38,125 nucleotides of DNA, from the IMG/VR virus record IMGVR_UViG_3300047170_000070, positions 1 to 38,125 of that record. The stretch is one strand, 5' to 3'. How positions within the stretch are numbered: position 1 is the stretch's first letter; every line of letters begins with the position of its first letter. Below, in pieces: positions 3,329 through 26,386 of this stretch. This stretch comes from a virus. The translations under genes and the position numbers were made by a program. The notes under the pieces were generated by a model. The model had not been told where the DNA came from, searched no databases, and saw only the letters and a program-made list of their open reading frames with translations.

Positions 3329-3991
3329 TTATGCGGCCTCTTTGGTTGTGTTGAGGTTGGCGGCTTGTTCGGCGAAGAAGCCGGAGGCGCGGGCTTTGAC
3401 GAGCATCGCGTCGCGCATGTCGAGGAATGCCGCGAGGGCGGCGGACATCCTGGCGATGTAAGGCTCATCGCGGTGCGTGCGGATTTGCACCGGCGGCAGC
3501 GTCGGGTGGAACGCATACAGGTCGACGAAGTCGAGTTCGGCGATGGCAAGCTGACCCTGCACTTGCGGCTTGTAGTCATCGCCCGGGCCGTCCACCAGGA
3601 AGCCGACATGGGTTTGCGGCGCGGTGCATTTGATCTCGACGCCGCCGCGCTGGCCGATCACCAGACGGTCGGGGCTGCATCCCAGCCGGCCGCAGTCGGT
3701 GGTGACAAAGCCCACCGCGCTGGTCTCGGTGTCGGTGCTGAATTCGTACTGCTGCACCGCCTGCGGTTCAAGGAGCTTGCCGCGCATGATCCAGTCGAGG
3801 TTGCCGATCGAGGACTCGAGCGGCTGGCCCAGCAGGATCTCGGCGACCAGCGCGTACGCGTATTTGTTCGCCTGCTTGGACAGTTCACCCTTGGCCGGGG
3901 TGATGATACGATGGAATTCCGACGATGTCGGAATGCCGAGCCGCGCGGCCAGCCATTCGGGCGAACCTTGTGCGCAATCGATGATCTTCAT
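3329..3991 (-). CDS. YqaJ/lambda-type recombination exonuclease
   Basis: This 220-aa enzyme carries the family's motifs in order: GSPEWLAARLGIPTSS (9-24), E75 in GKLLEP, the catalytic D108 in GCSPDRL, E119 and K121 in GVEIKC, and QVQGQ (143-147), the Q-box helix typical of viral exonucleases. Members digest one strand of double-stranded DNA 5' to 3', and the exposed strand is used by an annealing protein. Its partner here is the adjacent ERF-type gene, whose TGA overlaps this ATG by 4 nt. GGAGCAGC precedes the start. A longer in-frame extension to 4492 is rejected because it would read through the annealing gene. Confidence 0.9.
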   Translation of the reverse strand: MKIIDCAQGSPEWLAARLGIPTSSEFHRIITPAKGELSKQANKYAYALVAEILLGQPLESSIGNLDWIMRGKLLEPQAVQQYEFSTDTETSAVGFVTTDCGRLGCSPDRLVIGQRGGVEIKCTAPQTHVGFLVDGPGDDYKPQVQGQLAIAELDFVDLYAFHPTLPPVQIRTHRDEPYIARMSAALAAFLDMRDAMLVKARASGFFAEQAANLNTTKEAA

Positions 3992-4803
3992 GCTGCTGCT
4001 CCATTGGTTAAGGGTCGGCGTGCCGTCGCGGCACGTTCGGCCGCGGTGCGCTGGGCCAGGACGTTCGCCTTGGTCAGCAGCGCGTTGCGCAGGCGGCCGA
4101 AGTCGGCGGCCGGCGCCTGGGTGATCGAGCGCAGGCCCGCGCACATAGCGGCGAGGAATTTCCCTTCGCTGGTGTTGGTCCGCTCCATCAGTGTCCACAG
4201 TTCCTCGGCCTGGGCCTTGGTGATGCGGCCGTCGTGAGTGCGCGGAGCGGTGCGGTTGCCGTCGTTGTCGTCGTTCGCCAGCACGATGTTGAACACCATG
4301 CAGGTGAGGTAACGGCGAAGGTAGGACACCATCGAACCAAGTCCGTGCAGCGGCGTCTTGTTGGCCTTTCCTTGCGGTCCGGCGGTGTCCAGCCCGGCGT
4401 CGAGCTGGAACAGCTTGGTGTGGCCAGCGGTGTGCGAGACCTCGCAGACGATGCGTTCGTTCGGCCCCTCGATCGGGATGCTGTTGAAACACAGCAGGAA
4501 GCCGTTGCCGGTGTAGATCGGGCGGATCGCGGCATCGATCGTTTCGAGGCGGGCGTATTTGCTGTTGGTCTGATCGTTCCTCGCGTCACGCACGACGGGC
4601 AGCATCTCGCCCTGCGCTTTGACCATGGCGCGGTTGAACTGAAGGCGCGCGTCGTCGGCGACGATCTCGCGCTGCATGCGCAGCAGCACTTCGAGCTTGC
4701 CGACCTCGATCGTCGGATCGGCCATGGCGCGGGCGACAAAGTTGAGCAGCGAGTCCGCGAGGACGGGTTCGGCCACGGGGGCGATGGGGGTGATGGCGTT
4801 CAT
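3988..4803 (-). CDS. ERF-family single-strand annealing protein
   Basis: A 271-aa protein with ERF signature blocks: an N-terminal helical region with QFNRAMVKAQGEM, then SKYARLETIDAAIRPIY (KYAxLxxID) and HTAGHTKLF. GLGSMVSYLRRYLTCMVFNI follows, ending in ANDDNDGN, the acidic motif typical of ERF proteins. It should bind single-stranded DNA and promote annealing during phage recombination, acting with the exonuclease just downstream. The start at 4803 is chosen because ATG overlaps the upstream stop as ATGA and a GGAG lies before it; the longer frame to 4893 lacks a site. The C-terminal 60 residues are Ala-rich and variable. Confidence 0.85.
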   Translation of the reverse strand: MNAITPIAPVAEPVLADSLLNFVARAMADPTIEVGKLEVLLRMQREIVADDARLQFNRAMVKAQGEMLPVVRDARNDQTNSKYARLETIDAAIRPIYTGNGFLLCFNSIPIEGPNERIVCEVSHTAGHTKLFQLDAGLDTAGPQGKANKTPLHGLGSMVSYLRRYLTCMVFNIVLANDDNDGNRTAPRTHDGRITKAQAEELWTLMERTNTSEGKFLAAMCAGLRSITQAPAADFGRLRNALLTKANVLAQRTAAERAATARRPLTNGAAA

Positions 4804-4988
4804 GCCGCGAGCTCCAGTTCGACTTCGATGTCGGTGATCGCGGCGTCCAGCAGTTGTTCGCGCGCCATGCGGAGGTTCCAGGACGCGTGGCACTCCAGGG
4901 CCGGGCCGTCGGACTTGCGGGTTTCTGCCAGCGCGCGGTCGAGGTAGTTGAGGATGCTGAGCACCGCGTATTTGCTGAGCGTTGCCAT
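4800..4988 (-). CDS. Small helical hypothetical protein
   Basis: A 62-aa product, almost wholly helical by composition (LSKYAVLSILNYLDRALAET, later AREQLLDAAITDIEVELEL). No family recognised. The ATG at 4988 overlaps the upstream TGA as ATGA, and its own stop overlaps the ERF gene start likewise, so it is embedded in the coupled early operon. Longer upstream extensions would run through the neighbouring gene and were rejected. Confidence 0.55.
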   Translation of the reverse strand: MATLSKYAVLSILNYLDRALAETRKSDGPALECHASWNLRMAREQLLDAAITDIEVELELAA

Positions 4989-5539: not shown

Positions 5540-5572
5540 TTGACAGGTAACGTCGGAATACCCGACGTTACC
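5540..5572. promoter_or_regulatory. Operator O3 with consensus -35 of the repressor promoter
   Basis: GGTAACGTCGG (5546-5556) and CCGACGTTACC (5562-5572) form a perfect 11-bp inverted repeat with a 5-bp centre, the longest of the three operators. A consensus -35, TTGACA, ends at 5545, right at its edge on the plus strand. The repressor ATG follows at 5575 with no ribosome site, so its message may be leaderless or nearly so. No clear -10 is visible. Repressor bound here should block its own gene and possibly the leftward 44-aa gene. Confidence 0.75.
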
Positions 5573-5574
5573 TC

Positions 5575-6526: not shown

Positions 6527-6564
6527 AAAAAAGAGTCCCCAAGTCGATTGCAGTCGACTTGGGG
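6527..6564 (-). terminator. Rho-independent terminator for leftward transcription
   Basis: A perfect 11-bp inverted repeat CCCCAAGTCGA / TCGACTTGGGG (6537-6547, 6554-6564) has a 6-nt loop. On the minus strand it is followed by ACTC and TTTTTT (complement of A6 at 6527-6532). This is a textbook terminator facing left. No minus-strand gene is seen to its right for several kb, so it would stop antisense transcripts coming from the replication region. Confidence 0.7.
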
Positions 6565-6665: not shown

Positions 6666-8159
6666 ATGAGCGGCGACGCACCGCAACGCGAGCGCACCCA
6701 GCCGTCGGAACCAACCGATGCTGACCGCGCAGCGCGGGCGCGCCGCTTCCTCGAGCTCAAGCTATATGGGGTGTCTCCGGACACGATCGCGGAACGCGAA
6801 GGGCTGTCGCGCGCGATCGTCTACCGGATGATCGGCGAGGCCGCGCGTGAAGCCGATGCAAGGGCCGCGGCGGTGACGGCGGCTGCGGTGCCCGGAGCCG
6901 GCCCGGTGGCGATGCCCAAGAAGCTGGGCGAGGCGGCACTGCTGCGCCGGGCCTGGTACACCATGCACCTGCATGGCGGCCTGGCGGCGTCGGGTGCCGT
7001 GGCGCAACTGTTCTGGCTGAAGGCGGTGATGGCGATCCGCGCCGAGGGGGACGGCGTGGCGCTGCTGTTCGATGAAGCCGGCTATCTCGATGCGGCCGAT
7101 TTCGCCGCGTGCTTCGGCGGCACCCCGGACGCCTTCGCGCTGTTGACCCGCCGCCGGGTGCTGCTCGATCTCGACGGCGCCGGGATCGCTCTGCCGCCGC
7201 GCCTTGGGCTGCTGCCGCGCGAGAGGCTCGGCGGCGGCCTGGTTCCTTCGCGCTCAACCATCGCCCCTGACCGGCGCCAGTCCGAGATGCTGCACATCGT
7301 TCCCGGCGGTCGTTCTGATACAGGAACCGAGTCTACAGGAAGGGTGCATTCCGTAGACTCCGAGTCTACGAAACCGGCGGATTTCGGCCGTTTCGAGTCT
7401 ACGCAAAGCCACGATTCCGTAGACTCGCTTGGCCTCGTGCGCACGGCTGCTGCTGCTGCTAAAGCTAGTGAATCTACCACTTCAAGCAGCAGCAGCAGCC
7501 AGCAAGGCCGCGAGCGCGAGTCTACGAAAACCGCCGCTTCCGTAGACTCCGAGTCTACGGGAATGCCGAACGCCGTAGACTCCGCGCTGTCCGAAATGCT
7601 CGCCGAGGTTCGCGCCTTGGCCGGCATCAGCACGTCGACGAACGCCGGCAGCGACCTCGGCACCGTCGAGCGGTGGATGATGCACCACTCGCCGGACGCC
7701 ATCCGGGCGCTGGTGGCGGAGAAGACCAAGGCGGCCGGGAAGGCTGTCAGGTCGCTGAAGTACTTCGATCCGGCGTTCGATGAGACACTGGAGGCGCGGA
7801 CCAGGCCGGCGCGGGCCTGTGACCCGAAGGCCGCGCCCCCAGCCCGGGCCCCTGCGCCAGCCCTGTCCGCTGCCGACCAGGCGCTTCTGGACCGGCTGAA
7901 AGCACCGGCCGCGGCCTGGCATAAGGATCTGCACGGCTGCCCGTCACCGCCATCGATGGCGGCTTTCAAGGACGTGGCGACCGCCGTCGAGGCGGAACGC
8001 TGGCTGACCGTCTGGGAGGCCTGGAACGAGCGCGGCCGTCCGCACGGGCTAAAGCCGCCAAGCTTCGCCAATCGCGGCGTGCAGCGCGCCGAGTACGACG
8101 CCGACATGGCGGAGATCGAAGAAGAACTGACAGGCCCCGATCCGCCCGGGACCGGGTGA
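6666..8159 (+). CDS. Putative replication initiator carrying an origin in its gene
   Basis: A 497-aa protein. Residues 25-60 (FLELKLYGVSPDTIAEREGL, then SRAIVYRMIGEA) form a helix-turn-helix. About 85-210 is a helical domain. Residues 222-306 are a low-complexity linker made of repeated EST and VDS tripeptides and Ser runs. Two helical blocks follow (from WMMHHSPDAIRALV; from FKDVATAVEAERWL). The linker repeats are dictated by DNA: each EST or VDS is the translation of a GAGTCTAC or GTAGACTC half-site. This arrangement, iterons in the middle of the initiator gene, is that of lambda O and relatives. I infer that the product binds the origin; homology itself is not recognised. A weak AAGGCGGG precedes the ATG. 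Confidence 0.6.
   Translation: MSGDAPQRERTQPSEPTDADRAARARRFLELKLYGVSPDTIAEREGLSRAIVYRMIGEAAREADARAAAVTAAAVPGAGPVAMPKKLGEAALLRRAWYTMHLHGGLAASGAVAQLFWLKAVMAIRAEGDGVALLFDEAGYLDAADFAACFGGTPDAFALLTRRRVLLDLDGAGIALPPRLGLLPRERLGGGLVPSRSTIAPDRRQSEMLHIVPGGRSDTGTESTGRVHSVDSESTKPADFGRFESTQSHDSVDSLGLVRTAAAAAKASESTTSSSSSSQQGRERESTKTAASVDSESTGMPNAVDSALSEMLAEVRALAGISTSTNAGSDLGTVERWMMHHSPDAIRALVAEKTKAAGKAVRSLKYFDPAFDETLEARTRPARACDPKAAPPARAPAPALSAADQALLDRLKAPAAAWHKDLHGCPSPPSMAAFKDVATAVEAERWLTVWEAWNERGRPHGLKPPSFANRGVQRAEYDADMAEIEEELTGPDPPGTG
7329..7582. other. Candidate replication origin: ten half-sites in inverted pairs
   Basis: Half-sites GAGTCTAC start at 7329, 7362, 7395, 7470 (one mismatch, GAATCTAC), 7518 and 7551. 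The reverse form GTAGACTC starts at 7353, 7419, 7542 and 7575. Four pairs make the same 32-bp unit, GAGTCTAC-N16-GTAGACTC (7329-7360, 7395-7426, 7518-7549, 7551-7582), with the inner 16 bp differing. Adjacent units are 1 bp apart, which also creates compact dyads at 7353-7369 and 7542-7558. All spacings are multiples of 3, as the region is translated. The array is split by an A+T-richer loop flanked by a 15-bp inverted repeat. Confidence 0.7.
7446..7499. repeat. 15-bp perfect inverted repeat inside the origin array
   Basis: Five GCT units (7446-7460) face five AGC units (7485-7499) across a 24-nt loop that is A+T-richer than its surroundings and carries the degenerate half-site at 7470. It can form a long hairpin or cruciform in the centre of the half-site array. 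In protein terms it encodes an Ala run and a Ser run. Confidence 0.8.
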
Positions 8160-8165
8160 CGTCAT

Positions 8166-8417
8166 GTGCCGCGCGTCGACCTCGGCACCGCGGTTCGCTT
8201 CTCTGTCGCCCCCGGCGGCCAACCGGTGCCGCTGGGATGCACCGGGACGCGCCAGGTCGAGGGCGTCGTGATCGAGGTGGTGCCCAAGGGCCGCGAACCG
8301 TCAGCGATCGGCGCCCTGCGCACCAGCTCCCTGGCCCGATCGCCGCGCTACGTCGTGTTCACCTGGGGCGGTCTCTACCTGCTGCGTAACCGCGAGTTCG
8401 AAGTGGTGGCATGGTGA
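8166..8417 (+). CDS. Small beta-rich hypothetical protein
   Basis: An 83-aa protein starting at GTG 8166, six bases after the initiator stop and in the same frame. The sequence alternates hydrophobic and polar residues (AVRFSVAPGGQPVPLGC, VEGVVIEVVPKGREP, RYVVFTWGGLYLL), as in a small beta barrel. Family not recognised. It overlaps the next gene by 7 nt. Position suggests a role linked to replication. A read-through fusion of the two products is formally possible, since only TGA CGT CAT separates them. Confidence 0.55.
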   Translation: MPRVDLGTAVRFSVAPGGQPVPLGCTGTRQVEGVVIEVVPKGREPSAIGALRTSSLARSPRYVVFTWGGLYLLRNREFEVVAW

Positions 8418-8728
8418 ACGCGGCCGCGCACGGCCAATGGATCATGCGGCTGTGGAAGGCGGCACCGCAGACACCCCGGCCGCTGCTGCGGATACTCGCC
8501 ACGCTGCTGCTGGCCACGGGGAGCAGCGTCGACGCGCTGCTGATCGTGGGCGATGCGCTGGCCGAGGCCGGGCGCGATTGCGTGCTCAACGGCGATGCGC
8601 GCGGCGCCAGCGGCTATGCCGCGCTGGCCGCCATCGTGCGCCAGCAGGCGGCATTGACGCGCTGTAGAAAAAAAGAGCACATTGCAACTTCAGATTGTGG
8701 TTATCAGGAACCCTCCATGCCAGCGTGA
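8411..8728 (+). CDS. Helical hypothetical protein
   Basis: A 105-aa product with a hydrophobic helical core (LLRILATLLLATGSSVDALL, then IVGDALAEAGRDC) and Ala-rich helices. The last 20 codons fall in a patch of lower G+C and read less like the rest. The ATG overlaps the previous stop (ATGGTGA) and its own TGA overlaps a GTG start of the next gene. No family recognised. Confidence 0.5.
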   Translation: MVNAAAHGQWIMRLWKAAPQTPRPLLRILATLLLATGSSVDALLIVGDALAEAGRDCVLNGDARGASGYAALAAIVRQQAALTRCRKKEHIATSDCGYQEPSMPA

Positions 8729-10133: not shown

Positions 10134-11084
10134 ATGGACGTGACCGTCATCGGCGCCGCTCCAGGTGTCGCCCAGCAGGCCGGCAGCGACGATGAGATGG
10201 TCGCCTTGTGGCTCGGCCTTTACCGCTCCCCGCACACCAGGCGCGGCTACGCGATCGACGTCGCCGCGTTCCGCACGTTCGCCGACCGGCCGCTCACCCA
10301 GGTCACGGTGCGCGACATCCAGGGCTTCGCCGCCACGCTCGGCCACCTCGCGCCGGCCACCGCCGCGCGCCGGCTGTCGGCGGTCAAATCGCTGATCGCC
10401 CTGGCGCACCGGCTGGGCTACCTGACGTACGACGTCGGCGCCCCGATTCAGTTGCCGGCGATCCAGGATCGCCTGGCCGAGCGCATCATGTCCGAGTGGG
10501 AGATGCAGCGGATGCTGGGGCTGGAGAAGCGCCCGCGCAACGCGGCGCTGCTGCGCCTGCTCTACTCCGCGGGCCTGCGCATCTCCGAGGCGTGCGGGCT
10601 GCGTTGGCGCGACCTGACCGAGCGCGGCGGCGGCGGCACGGGCGAGCAAGCACGCGAGCGAGGGGTCAAAGTAGATGGCGGCGCGAAAGTAGACCCCGGC
10701 TCGAAAGTAGATAGCGGCCAGATTTCGGTGTTCGGCAAGGGCGGCAAGACGCGCTCTATTTTGCTGCCGTCGCCGATATGGGCGCGGCTCTCTACTTTAC
10801 GGCGCGACGCAGGGCCGGACGATCCGGTGTTCCGCTCGCGCCAGGGCGGCGCGCTCAATCCGTCGCAGGTTCATCGCATCGTCAAGGCCGCCGCGAAGCG
10901 CGCGAAGCTCTCCGTGTTGGTGTCCGCGCACTGGATGCGCCACGCCCACGCCAGCCACGCGCTCGATCGCGGCGCACCAGTCCATGTCGTTCAGGCAACG
11001 TTGGGTCATGCCAGCCTCGCAACCACAACTCGTTACTCGCACGCGCGGCCGGGCGACAGCAGCGCGCGGTATTTGAACGCCTGA
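10134..11084 (+). CDS. int: Tyrosine recombinase (phage integrase, XerC/D-like)
   Basis: A 316-aa protein with an N-terminal SAM-like core-binding domain (about 22-95) and a C-terminal catalytic domain. All catalytic residues are visible: R149 in SAGLRISEACGLRW, K202 in FGKGGKTR, H266 and R269 in HWMRH, H292 in TLGHASLATTTRY and the nucleophile Y301. It should integrate and excise the phage by strand exchange at att sites. An insertion of roughly 25-30 residues (about 163-195) between R149 and K202 contains three repeats (VKVDGG, AKVDPG, SKVDSG) encoded by 18-bp DNA repeats; XerC/D enzymes usually have only a short turn there. CGGAG lies about 10 nt before the ATG. Confidence 0.9.
   Translation: MDVTVIGAAPGVAQQAGSDDEMVALWLGLYRSPHTRRGYAIDVAAFRTFADRPLTQVTVRDIQGFAATLGHLAPATAARRLSAVKSLIALAHRLGYLTYDVGAPIQLPAIQDRLAERIMSEWEMQRMLGLEKRPRNAALLRLLYSAGLRISEACGLRWRDLTERGGGGTGEQARERGVKVDGGAKVDPGSKVDSGQISVFGKGGKTRSILLPSPIWARLSTLRRDAGPDDPVFRSRQGGALNPSQVHRIVKAAAKRAKLSVLVSAHWMRHAHASHALDRGAPVHVVQATLGHASLATTTRYSHARPGDSSARYLNA
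10666..10719. repeat. Three 18-bp direct repeats inside the integrase gene
   Basis: Units start at 10666, 10684 and 10702 and share AAAGTAGAYNNCGG (AAAGTAGA at 10668, 10686, 10704). A reverse copy, TCTACTTT, is at 10791-10798. The motif is the one found before the gene at 10048-10129. It is in frame and encodes the insert repeats of the recombinase. Confidence 0.75.
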
Positions 11085-11115: not shown

Positions 11116-11805
11116 GTGGCGGCAGGAATTAAGACGGGCGGCCGAACGAAAGGCACGGCGAATAAGCCGAAAGCCGCGCCCGGTGTAACTACAGACGTAG
11201 CGGCGCGCGTAGCCACGCCGCCCGCGGCGGCGGCGGCGGCCGCAGTATGCGAGCATCCGCGCGCGCGCCCGCGCGCGAAGCCGGCGCCGGACGTCGCGCG
11301 GGAGCAAGGCCCGAAACTGCCTAGATACCGGCTGACGCCAGTAGACCAGCTTGTGCCGTATGCCACCAACGCGCGCACCCATTCGGCCGAACAAGTCGAC
11401 AAGCTGGCCGCCTCGATCGCCGAATTCGGCTTCACCAATCCGGTGCTCACCGACGGCCGCCGCGGCGTCATCGCCGGCCACGGGCGGCTGCTGGCGGCAC
11501 GGAAGCTGGGCATGGCCGAGGTGCCGACGATCGAGCTCGCGCACCTGTCGGCGGCGCAGCGGCGGGCGTACGTGATCGCGGACAACCGCCTGGCGCTCGA
11601 TGCCGGCTGGGACGACGAACTGCTGACGATGGAACTGGGCGCGCTGCGCGATGGCGGCTTTGACCTGGCGCTCACCGGGTTCGACCCGGGCGAGCTGGAC
11701 GCACTGCTTGGACCTGACCCGGATGACCTGCCCGGACCCGAGCTGGAGACGCGCACGGCCGCGCGGGTCGTCTGTCCCAAATGCGGCCACGGCTTCTTGC
11801 CCTAA
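11116..11805 (+). CDS. ParB/sulfiredoxin-domain protein
   Basis: A 229-aa protein from GTG. After a basic, Ala-rich tail (1-65) comes a ParB-like N-terminal domain: LTPVDQLVPYATNARTHS, VDKLAASIAEFGFTNPVLTD, and the signature GHGRLLAARKLGM (121-133), followed by VPTIEL and YVIADNRLAL. Near the C-terminus is a CPKCG half-knuckle. Such stand-alone ParB-domain proteins are common next to phage packaging genes, where they are predicted NTP-binding or nuclease-like proteins. Many relatives are fused to a DNA methyltransferase; no methyltransferase follows here. A partition role is unlikely without ParA. CAGGTGA lies upstream of the start. Confidence 0.8.
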   Translation: MAAGIKTGGRTKGTANKPKAAPGVTTDVAARVATPPAAAAAAAVCEHPRARPRAKPAPDVAREQGPKLPRYRLTPVDQLVPYATNARTHSAEQVDKLAASIAEFGFTNPVLTDGRRGVIAGHGRLLAARKLGMAEVPTIELAHLSAAQRRAYVIADNRLALDAGWDDELLTMELGALRDGGFDLALTGFDPGELDALLGPDPDDLPGPELETRTAARVVCPKCGHGFLP

Positions 11806-16133: not shown

Positions 16134-16748
16134 ATGACCAACCTGCAAGCCATCACCGCGATCCTCGCCGCCCACCGCGAGGCCCGCAGATGGACCGACG
16201 ACGCTGTTGCGGCCGACCTGGTGGCGCAGCTCGGGCTTGACCCGGCGGCCGACGCGAAGAACGCCGCGCCGGTGATCCAGCCCGGCATCACCGAGGCCGA
16301 GGTTGTGGCGCATGAGCACGCGGCGATGGATGCGGTGGACAAGGCCATGGGTGCCCGCGCCGCATTGACGATCCAAGCCGAGGTTGCGGCCAAGGCTGAC
16401 GCCGACGCCAAGGATAAAGCTGACGTCACGGCCAAGATCGAGGCCGAATCCAAAGCCAAGGCCGATGCTCAAGCCAAGGCCAAGGCTGACGTCGCCGCGG
16501 ATCAGGCGAAGCTCGCGGCCGACGAAGCGAAAGCCGCCGCCGCCGAACGCCAGGCCGCGCTGGAAACGCCGGCAACCGCGCCGATCGGGCCGAGTGAGAT
16601 CGGGTCGAGTGAGAAAGGGCCGAGTGCCGCACCGTTCGCCTCGCCGGAGCCGCCGCCGTTCGTGCCGCCCGTGCCGTCGGCGCCGTTCGCCTCGACGCCG
16701 GAGCCACGGCCTCTGCTGCCGGCCGAGCCGGTGCCGCCGCACGCGTGA
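16134..16748 (+). CDS. Ala/Lys coiled-coil protein with Pro-rich tail
   Basis: A 204-aa protein. Residues 1-80 are helical. Residues about 80-145 form a long Ala/Lys/Asp coiled coil with repeated KADA and KAKAD units. The last 55 are Pro/Ser-rich (PSAAPFASPEPPPFVPPVP). AAGGAA lies upstream of the ATG. It overlaps the large-terminase start as GTGA, so it is expressed with packaging genes. It may be an accessory to the terminase; family not recognised. Confidence 0.65.
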   Translation: MTNLQAITAILAAHREARRWTDDAVAADLVAQLGLDPAADAKNAAPVIQPGITEAEVVAHEHAAMDAVDKAMGARAALTIQAEVAAKADADAKDKADVTAKIEAESKAKADAQAKAKADVAADQAKLAADEAKAAAAERQAALETPATAPIGPSEIGSSEKGPSAAPFASPEPPPFVPPVPSAPFASTPEPRPLLPAEPVPPHA

Positions 16749-18121
16749 GCGCAGCACTCAAACGCCAGCCCGCGAAGGCCGCCGAAAAGCTCGTCCGGTT
16801 GCAGCTTCCGCGCAAACTGGCGTTCCTGCTGGAGCAACACCCGTACAAAGTCGCGTTCGGGGGCCGAAACAGCCTGAAGTCCTGGTCGTTTGCCCGCGCG
16901 CTGCTGACGCTGGGCGTCCACCAGTCCCTCCGCATCCTGTGCGCCCGCGAGGTCCAGAAATCGATCTTGCAGAGCGTGCATCAGTTGCTGCGGGATCAGA
17001 TCGCCGCGCTCGACTACGCCGATGAGTACGACATCACCGAGAACGCCATACGGGGCAGGCGCCAGAACACGCTGTTCCGGTTCACCGGCTTGTCGGATCA
17101 GACAGTGGACAGCATCAAGTCCTACGAAGGCTTCGACGTGTGCTGGGTCGAGGAAGCGCACAGCGTTCGCAAGCGGTCATGGCAAATCCTGCTGCCGACC
17201 ATCTTCCGCACCGTCGGCGCCGAGGTCTGGGTTTCGTTCAACCCCGACATGGACTCCGACGAAGCCTGGGACCGCTTCGTGGTCAACACTCCGCCGGGTG
17301 CTGTCGTGGTCGAGATGAACTGGCGCGACGCGGTCTCGTGCGGCTGGTGGTCGCCGGAGCAGGAGAAGCTGCGGCAATACGACCTGGTCCACTCAAAGGA
17401 TGACTACGCCAACATCTGGGACGGCAAGCCCCGCGTCGTGGTCGCCGGCGCCATCTACGCCCGCGAGGTGGTGGACATGATCGCGGAAAAGCGGTTCCGC
17501 CCGCTCCCCTACGATCCAAGGCTCCCCGTGCATCGCATCTGGGATTTGGGCTGGAACGACCTCATGACTGTCATCATGATACAGAAGCCGCACCCGTCGG
17601 CGCTCAACGTGGTCAACTACATCGAGGACAGCCACATCACCTACGCGGAGCTGCTCGCCGCGATGGACCAGCTCCGCTACGTGTGGGGGACCGACTGGAT
17701 GCCGCACGATGCCGAGCAGCACGATCCGAAGTCGGGCACCAACGCGCGCAAGCTGCTGGTGGGGCACGGTCGCAAGGTGCAGATCATCCCAAAGTCGGAC
17801 GCCGAGGCCCGCATCCGCGCCGCCCGCATGATGTTCCCGCGCGTCTACTTAGACAACAGCAAGCACGCGACGCCGCCCGATCGGCCGGATCGGCTGCTGG
17901 GCGGCGCCTATCTGATGGAACGGCTGAAGCGGTATAAACGGAACGTGCCGAAGACGACGCAGGAGCCCACCGGGCCGATGCACGACATCTCGAGTCACGC
18001 CGCCGACGCCTGGGGCGGGATGGCCGAGATCGTGGAGCGCATCCGCAACGAGGGCGACATGCCGATGCCGAACATCCGCCCGTTCGAGAACGTGGATCCT
18101 AGTCTGGGAATGTTGGGATGA
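16745..18121 (+). CDS. terL: Terminase large subunit
   Basis: A 458-aa packaging motor and nuclease. The ATPase domain has the Walker A-like GGRNSLKS (39-46) and Walker B DVCWVEEA (131-138) with its catalytic glutamates. The C-terminal nuclease domain has acidic residues D267 in IWDLGWND and D414/D421 in HDISSHAADAWG. The order and length match the PBSX/Terminase_3-type large subunits. It drives DNA into the prohead and cuts the concatemer. The start is GTG, overlapping the upstream stop by 4 nt. Confidence 0.93.
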   Translation: MSAALKRQPAKAAEKLVRLQLPRKLAFLLEQHPYKVAFGGRNSLKSWSFARALLTLGVHQSLRILCAREVQKSILQSVHQLLRDQIAALDYADEYDITENAIRGRRQNTLFRFTGLSDQTVDSIKSYEGFDVCWVEEAHSVRKRSWQILLPTIFRTVGAEVWVSFNPDMDSDEAWDRFVVNTPPGAVVVEMNWRDAVSCGWWSPEQEKLRQYDLVHSKDDYANIWDGKPRVVVAGAIYAREVVDMIAEKRFRPLPYDPRLPVHRIWDLGWNDLMTVIMIQKPHPSALNVVNYIEDSHITYAELLAAMDQLRYVWGTDWMPHDAEQHDPKSGTNARKLLVGHGRKVQIIPKSDAEARIRAARMMFPRVYLDNSKHATPPDRPDRLLGGAYLMERLKRYKRNVPKTTQEPTGPMHDISSHAADAWGGMAEIVERIRNEGDMPMPNIRPFENVDPSLGMLG

Positions 18122-25239: not shown

Positions 25240-25490
25240 TGAGCTTTTGCGCCCTCGACCTAGCCAAACTTGGATACGCGCGCCCGCGGTTCTGCGAAAT
25301 ATGCGGCCTCGGCCCATGTCGCATCGAGGCCGCCCCGTCGCCAGCGCGGCCTGTAACCGCCGATGACGTGGCCGCCCTGATCGCTGCCGCCGTGTTTCCG
25401 CTCACCCACGACGCGGAGCGCCGCGACAGCCTGGCGGCTCTGCTTGCGGCGTTCGCGGCGGAGATCAGGCGGAGCGCCATCGAGCCATGA
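25239..25490 (+). CDS. Small Cys-containing protein
   Basis: An 83-aa product with CEICGLGPC at residues 19-27, a likely single metal knuckle, then helical sequence (VTADDVAALIAAAVFPLT, SLAALLAAFAAEIRRSA). It overlaps both neighbours by a few bases (TGATG, ATGA). No family recognised. Confidence 0.55.
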   Translation: MSFCALDLAKLGYARPRFCEICGLGPCRIEAAPSPARPVTADDVAALIAAAVFPLTHDAERRDSLAALLAAFAAEIRRSAIEP

Positions 25491-26386
25491 ACCTCCTCCA
25501 GCTCGCTCAACGCGCGTGCGTGGAATGCGGCGTCGCCAGCAACACGGCGATCCAGACCGCGCTCCCTACCACCGCCGGCGCGACAGGCAGTCTCGGCCGC
25601 GTGGTGAACTGGGTCAACGATGCGTGGCTGGATGTCCAAGAATTCTCCGACGAATGGGACTGGATGCGGAGTTCCAACCTGCTCGGCCTCGGCGTGTCGT
25701 TCCCGACGGTGTTCGGCCAGCCGAGCTATCCGCTCGGCGTCTTTCCCAGCGGCGCGGGAACGGGCAGGGCCAGCGACTTCGGCGGCGACTTCGGGGGAGA
25801 CTTCGGCGGCGGCTCCGCCAGCGCGACGACTGTCACGGCGGGCACCAGCGACTTCGGCGGCGACTTCGGCGGCGATTTCAGTGCGGGCAGCACCACCGTT
25901 ACGACACCCCCTTCGGGCACCTGCGGCATCGCGGTGGACGCGTTCGGCAAATGGGATGTCGAAACCTTCAGATGCTACACGACGAGCTTCGGCACAGGGA
26001 ACGAGGAATTCCTGGACGAGATCCCGTACGACGCATGGCGCAACTGCTACATGCTCGGCGCGCAACGGCAGGTGCGGACGCGCCCCGTCGTCGTCGCTGT
26101 CGGCCCCGATCAGTCGCTGTGTCTCGGACCGCCGCCCAACGCGCTCTACACGGTGACCGGAGACTACTGGGTCGCGCCGTCGCTGATGCTGCTCGACACC
26201 GACATCCCGGTCGGTCTGCCGACGCGGTTTCATTTGCTCATCGTCTATTTGGCAATGTGCAAATACGCAGGTTATGAGAGCGCACCTGAAGTATATGCGC
26301 GCGGCAGCAGCGAAAGCGCGCGCATGTATGCCCGGCTGCTGGCGCTGCGCGCGCCCGCGGTCTGCTTCGGCGGTGCCCTCGCATGA
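25487..26386 (+). CDS. Head-tail adaptor-like protein with DFGG-repeat insert
   Basis: A 299-aa protein. The start (MNLLQLAQRACVECGV, then GRVVNWVNDAWLDVQEFSDE) is typical of phage adaptor proteins that dock on the portal. The C-terminal half has PYDAWRNCYMLGAQRQVRTR, the QSLCLGPPPNALYTVTGDYW strand and a helical LLIVYLAMCKYAGYE. Between them, about residues 97-131, is an insert with two blocks of DFGGDFGGDF and Ser/Thr spacers. The family usually runs near 200-230 aa without this insert. It should join portal and tail. Confidence 0.6.
   Translation: MNLLQLAQRACVECGVASNTAIQTALPTTAGATGSLGRVVNWVNDAWLDVQEFSDEWDWMRSSNLLGLGVSFPTVFGQPSYPLGVFPSGAGTGRASDFGGDFGGDFGGGSASATTVTAGTSDFGGDFGGDFSAGSTTVTTPPSGTCGIAVDAFGKWDVETFRCYTTSFGTGNEEFLDEIPYDAWRNCYMLGAQRQVRTRPVVVAVGPDQSLCLGPPPNALYTVTGDYWVAPSLMLLDTDIPVGLPTRFHLLIVYLAMCKYAGYESAPEVYARGSSESARMYARLLALRAPAVCFGGALA

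Follow-up and report, generated by a model that had tools for sequence, protein, structure and literature searches.

A putative two-sided replication origin in the linker-coding stretch of a phage's proposed initiator gene

Gene neighbourhood and the proposed initiator

The window, by which we mean the whole stretch of DNA analysed, covers one IMG/VR record completely (38,125 bases). Its recognisable genes (Table 1) include a terminase large subunit, for which many relatives were found; the proteins scanned included no recognisable helicase or primase. Two inverted repeats precede genes in this part of the window. The first, a perfect repeat at 5545–5573 (AGGTAACGTCGG-AATAC-CCGACGTTACCT), lies immediately 5´ of the small DNA-binding ORF, is adjoined by a TTGACA hexamer at 5540, and is likely an early-control operator. 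The second, at 6537–6564 (CCCCAAGTCGA-TTGCAG-TCGACTTGGGG), lies 5´ of the proposed initiator gene and is possibly a terminator or a regulatory hairpin. In the structural region, ORF 25487–26386 contains a same-strand repeat at 25774–25861, a run of the GGDFGGDFGGDF type.

Table 1. Coordinates of features in the window
Feature	Position	Strand	Remark
YqaJ and ERF recombination genes	3329–4893	-	
Small DNA-binding gene	start 5575		
Proposed initiator gene containing the array (P0001, 497 aa)	6666–8159	+	open frame
Predicted helix-turn-helix region, residues 18–74	6717–6887	+	AlphaFold model
Exact half-sites	start 7329, 7362, 7395, 7518, 7551	+	
Exact half-sites	7353–7360, 7419–7426, 7542–7549, 7575–7582	-	
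Unit 1	7329–7360	.	GAGTCTAC-N16-GTAGACTC
Solo half-site	7362–7369	+	GAGTCTAC, expected partner position empty
Unit 2	7395–7426	.	GAGTCTAC-N16-GTAGACTC
Central hairpin	7445–7500	.	16-bp arms (7445–7460, 7485–7500), 24-nt loop
Variant half-site	7470–7477	+	GAATCTAC, one mismatch, within hairpin loop
Unit 3	7518–7549	.	GAGTCTAC-N16-GTAGACTC
Unit 4	7551–7582	.	GAGTCTAC-N16-GTAGACTC
Integrase (tyrosine recombinase) gene	10134–11084		
ParB_N match	11116–11805		under curated cut-off
Terminase large subunit gene	16745–18121		

We infer that P0001 is the replication initiator of the phage. Its PHROG matches are weak and confined to helix-turn-helix (HTH) and DNA-metabolism families; no significant match to named initiator families was obtained, nor an O-like family match in PHROG or Pfam. 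The initiator of phage lambda, O, consists of an N-terminal DNA-binding part and a C-terminal partner-binding part. In the AlphaFold model of P0001, the predicted HTH region has a pLDDT of about 64–85 and the model is poor elsewhere. Foldseek searches with this region returned mostly HTH regulators as best matches, all at E > 1 and thus not significant. The C-terminal part gave no family match and no recognised helicase-loader domain, and its structural model was discarded as too poor in quality to be usable. Of the short ORFs immediately downstream, the place of the helicase-loader gene P in lambda, 8156–8389 matched no Pfam family and 8411–8728 no PHROG. Whole-protein searches with P0001 against phages, plasmids, and viral and genome contigs returned no matches, and the single homologue found is a protein of 30% identity on contig G001. 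When 395 genomes from a single phylum were searched with alignment A1, the sole match was L097, which contains no replication gene and was rejected as spurious.

A half-site array selected at the DNA level

The array occupies the linker-coding stretch of the P0001 gene, which separates the predicted DNA-binding part from the C-terminal one. The original prediction counted ten half-sites in 254 bp; nine of these are exact copies of GAGTCTAC or GTAGACTC, on either strand, and the tenth carries a mismatch. All nine lie within 7329–7582, and no exact copy occurs outside this interval in the whole 38 kb window. The confinement of the motif to the array, as opposed to a genome-wide distribution, is compatible with the suggestion that it is origin-like. 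The four units described earlier are exact, as are the 33-bp steps and the in-frame spacing. These 32-bp units with 16-bp centres are interspersed with solo half-sites, and when all nine exact sites are read beyond the 8-mer the half-site reaches about GAGTCTACGRAA. The inner 16-mers had been called unrelated, which is not entirely correct: they have diverged and the centres differ between units, but the half-site extends beyond the 8-mer, and the inner sequences that follow 7362 and 7518 agree at 13 of 16 positions in inverted orientation. The palindrome GTAGACTC-N-GAGTCTAC was found on no viral contig other than that of the window. One isolated, non-coding match to the unit in another phage (L005) was set aside as probably due to chance; by our own estimate, a 16-base pattern would presumably occur several times by chance in the collection concerned.

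In the reading frame of the gene, all + sites encode EST and all - sites VDS, and the exact sites use only GAG TCT or GTA GAC TC. In this phage TCT makes up 3.8% of Ser codons and GTA 4.0% of Val codons. Under protein-only constraint and phage codon usage, choosing GAG-TCT five times and GTA-GAC-TC four times has a log10 P of -15.2. The P0001 gene has four GTA codons, every one of them inside the array. Nine copies of one 8-mer in 254 bp were observed, as against a maximum of six for any 8-mer in synonymous shuffles of the gene (n = 300) and four in codon-order shuffles. As none of the exact sites departs from these rare codons, the sites are selected as DNA. Recent duplication could also have kept the rare codons in place, except that the inner sequences have diverged and the arms have not. 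The earlier proposal that a DNA constraint shapes the linker is thus borne out by codon use, and for the most part the protein sequence of the linker follows from the DNA sites.

The array is centred on a hairpin, noted previously, which is the longest perfect inverted repeat in the window (loops of 3–80 nt). Its loop has 37.5% GC, and only 0.7% of windows of the same length are equally AT-rich. Folded as single-stranded DNA, the array has a z-score of -8.65. The hairpin arms are runs of GCT/AGC codons, which weakens the argument from the window phage alone; when the codon order of the gene was shuffled 200 times, a 15-bp hairpin arose once, compared with the 16 bp observed. Over the whole window, cumulative GC skew has its maximum near 7–9 kb, at the same place as the switch in coding strand. 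Because of this coincidence GC skew cannot locate an origin here; origin mapping by skew, as suggested with the original prediction, is confounded, and independent support from skew for the array as an origin is absent.

The same layout in other phages

The homologue of P0001 is encoded on a 55-kb contig (G001) with a terminase 77% identical to that of the window. From the ATG chosen here, the protein (P0002) has 514 aa, and its C-terminal region matches DnaA_N (E 3e-5), just below the curated cut-off; searches with P0002 returned nothing new. Its linker contains nine copies of TGTCCGGAGAAAGT, arranged on the gene's strand as one forward, four reverse, a hairpin and four forward, the four per side being spaced 24-21-24. 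The hairpin has 14 bp and an AT-rich loop of 25 nt. The halves of the array form 88-nt arms that are 91% complementary, and the folding z-score of the region is -17.9. In an ungapped dyad scan this array, with 76% complementarity across 127 bp and a z-score of 11.6, ranked highest in its stretch; the arrays of the window, L112 and L017 were not ranked first. Paired G001 sites were found only on the G001 contig itself. Both the EST/VDS peptides and GAGTCTAC are absent from the G001 protein and array. Relative to the window, the site sequence has changed, and the layout and the linker position have been kept. What relatives conserve is not the inverted 32-bp unit but the arrangement of sites on both sides of an AT-rich hairpin.

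The homologue bears on two other explanations. One holds that the array arose from protein-driven EST/VDS repeats, or from an in-frame mobile palindromic repeat or element copying. All sites are in frame and the linker is of low complexity, as this would predict, yet rare codons are fixed at the sites, the homologue has an array without the peptides, and no exact copies are present elsewhere in the phage; we consider it most improbable, and the protein-driven pattern raised with the original prediction is not upheld. The other takes the sites as lox-like targets of the phage tyrosine recombinase, each unit being readable as 12-bp arms around an 8-bp spacer. Such an enzyme is indeed encoded by the phage, but its gene lies about 2.5 kb from the array, the spacers do not match between units, and the G001 sites are 14-bp sites, mostly of the same orientation within each cluster, rather than arms paired across a spacer, so that recombination targets are equally hard to credit.

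The layout also recurs with other initiators. In two contigs (L033/L112 and L008), with terminases 79% identical, a P0001-type gene is replaced by a replication gene that has the same sequence in both. It matches DUF1376 and DnaT just below curated cut-offs, and also a primosomal-protein PHROG. The N-terminal family of this gene and that of P0001 are unrelated at the thresholds used. Its linker has 16 ATGCG/CGCAT half-sites to the left and 10 to the right of a 14-bp hairpin. The protein of locus L124 is 34% identical to this initiator and matches DnaA_N (E 3e-13); its array places 19 half-sites to the left and 11 to the right of an 11-bp hairpin, the 47-nt loop of which is the most AT-rich stretch of such length in the 4-kb locus. 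Arrays of this DUF1376/DnaT type use CGCATGCG-type sites. They are like that of the window in being intragenic and two-sided, with a central AT-rich hairpin and a linker position, and differ in their sites and in the N-terminal family of the initiator. For the four intragenic cases the fold z-scores are -8.7, -17.9, -6.9 and -6.6, to which the inverted sites themselves partly contribute, and 0.7%, 2.6%, 4.7% and 0.025% of same-length windows equal the AT-richness of the loop.

In locus L017 (5180–5450), mixed-strand CATGACGC sites occur on both sides of a 12-bp hairpin directly 3´ of a Prim-Pol/AAA_25 gene. The region is without a long open frame and the hairpin loop is not AT-rich; the array is probably the origin of a related phage. 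The specificity of the layout was assessed by a scan of 1.53 Mb of phage and host-contig DNA, partly redundant and not counting L124, which contained 46 inverted repeats of at least 12 bp with loops of 8–80 nt, some of them overlapping. Repetition of one 8-mer, at least twice per side, was confined to the window, G001, L017 and the DUF1376 gene, which counts as a single sequence at three loci. All scanned hairpins with two-sided repeats are thus at replication loci.

This distribution has to be set against two further readings of the sites. They could be operators, bound by the HTH protein encoded here or by a different regulator of the phage to control transcription across the P0001 gene. A dimeric regulator could well use inverted half-sites, and regulators predominate among the non-significant fold matches of the HTH region. 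The array is, however, in the middle of a gene and not at a promoter, ten sites flanking an AT-rich hairpin are unlike an ordinary operator, and the layout recurs in DUF1376/DnaT-type replication genes, with the L017 array adjoining a primase-helicase gene; control of transcription is therefore an unlikely function. A parS-like partition centromere, or another segregation or packaging signal, is very unlikely. Repeated inverted sites are known in centromeres and the phage has the sub-threshold ParB_N match, but the window proteins scanned included no ParA, the ParB-like and terminase genes lie at distances of about 4 kb and about 9 kb from the array, and the arrays of relatives are located in replication genes.

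Other repeats were observed at related loci. A contig with a related terminase carries a dense mixed-strand GTGACCAC array (L034, 2822–3091). At L053 (880–1090), an O-like initiator gene (HTH_36) has direct CCCGCAG repeats in its linker, and these resemble one-sided lambda-type iterons. DUF1376-like genes are present in Acetobacter phage phiAX1 (L119, 2956–3807) and Komagataeibacter phage phiKX1 (L120, 2944–3825). Direct repeats similar to TGCAAA or TACAAA are visible by eye in their linkers, the detector finds no array in these genes, and we regard the linkers as candidate unannotated intragenic origins.

Relation to known origins and a model for initiation

Intragenic origins are already known from model phages (lambda, SPP1). 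OriLambda is situated midway along gene O, where its iterons, inverted repeats of 18–19 bp, flank an AT-rich tract on one side only (PMC7466680; PMC6022878). The window resembles lambda in having an origin-like array amid the proposed initiator gene, repeated putative initiator sites and an AT-rich element. Inversion, put forward as the novelty relative to lambda, does not distinguish the two, as the lambda iterons are themselves inverted repeats (PMC6022878; PMC7466680). The differences are instead that lambda has four tandem iterons, each an imperfect inverted repeat, on one side, whereas facing clusters lie to either side of the AT-rich hairpin in the window, and that the window has 8–12 bp half-sites at 16-bp spacing and no O homology. 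The AT-rich element beside the sites is the hairpin loop, short and central compared with the 39-bp flanking tract of lambda. With the same detector, the lambda O region gave three direct iteron copies and no perfect inverted repeat of at least 10 bp (loop 4–90 nt); folding revealed an imperfect hairpin to the right of the AT-rich tract, and the z-score of the lambda ori stretch is -5.25. By location and selection, the array of the window is thus of the general lambda-O kind; it does not share the features specific to oriLambda, that is, the iteron form and O homology.

Two other origins offer partial parallels. SPP1 oriL is situated inside gene 38 and contains repeats and an AT-rich unwinding element (PMC6316719). 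It is like the array of the window in being within the presumed initiator's gene, and unlike it in having direct repeats, with no two-sided dyad described in the parts of the source consulted (PMC6316719). In herpes simplex virus OriS, oppositely oriented initiator boxes surround an AT-rich spacer and a hairpin forms upon unwinding (PMC12543377). The two layouts may work alike. OriS has three boxes only, and its origin-binding protein is itself a helicase, unlike the window; no relation between that protein and the initiator of the window is known, and the parallel is one of analogy only. A two-sided intragenic layout was not found in the literature searched, the scope of which was thin on subscription journals.

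Taken together, the array is very probably a replication origin that, like that of lambda in O, lies inside the gene of its own initiator, here in the part encoding the linker. The best reading is a two-sided form of the lambda-O-type intragenic origin, predicted to be bound by its own initiator. The N-terminal HTH domain, as the presumed binder, would bind the half-sites, and binding on both flanks would strain or bend the centre. The AT-rich loop could then open or extrude as a cruciform, and the C-terminal part would recruit the host replicative helicase to the two exposed strands, one per side. A helicase on each side would lead to bidirectional replication. The DnaA_N and DnaT matches in relatives would fit helicase recruitment, although the C-terminal part of P0001 itself matches no family. 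A more far-reaching possibility, which we put forward tentatively and hold to be somewhat doubtful, is that these loci represent a distinct class of phage origin, with facing clusters of initiator sites around a cruciform-forming hairpin with an AT-rich loop, all within the linker-coding part of an initiator gene. Such a class would have arisen or been exchanged independently in two or more unrelated families of initiators. The hairpin might then be a working part that aids helicase loading on each strand, for a symmetric bidirectional start unlike that of the one-sided lambda origin.

In summary, the array sites of this phage are under DNA-level selection, and the locus provides a clear example of DNA sites dictating a protein linker. 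The layout of facing repeats, AT-rich hairpin and open frame is recognisable from sequence even without a protein family match, and hence provides a way to find the origins and initiators of uncultured phages. It also offers a testable model in which one origin would load two helicases symmetrically.
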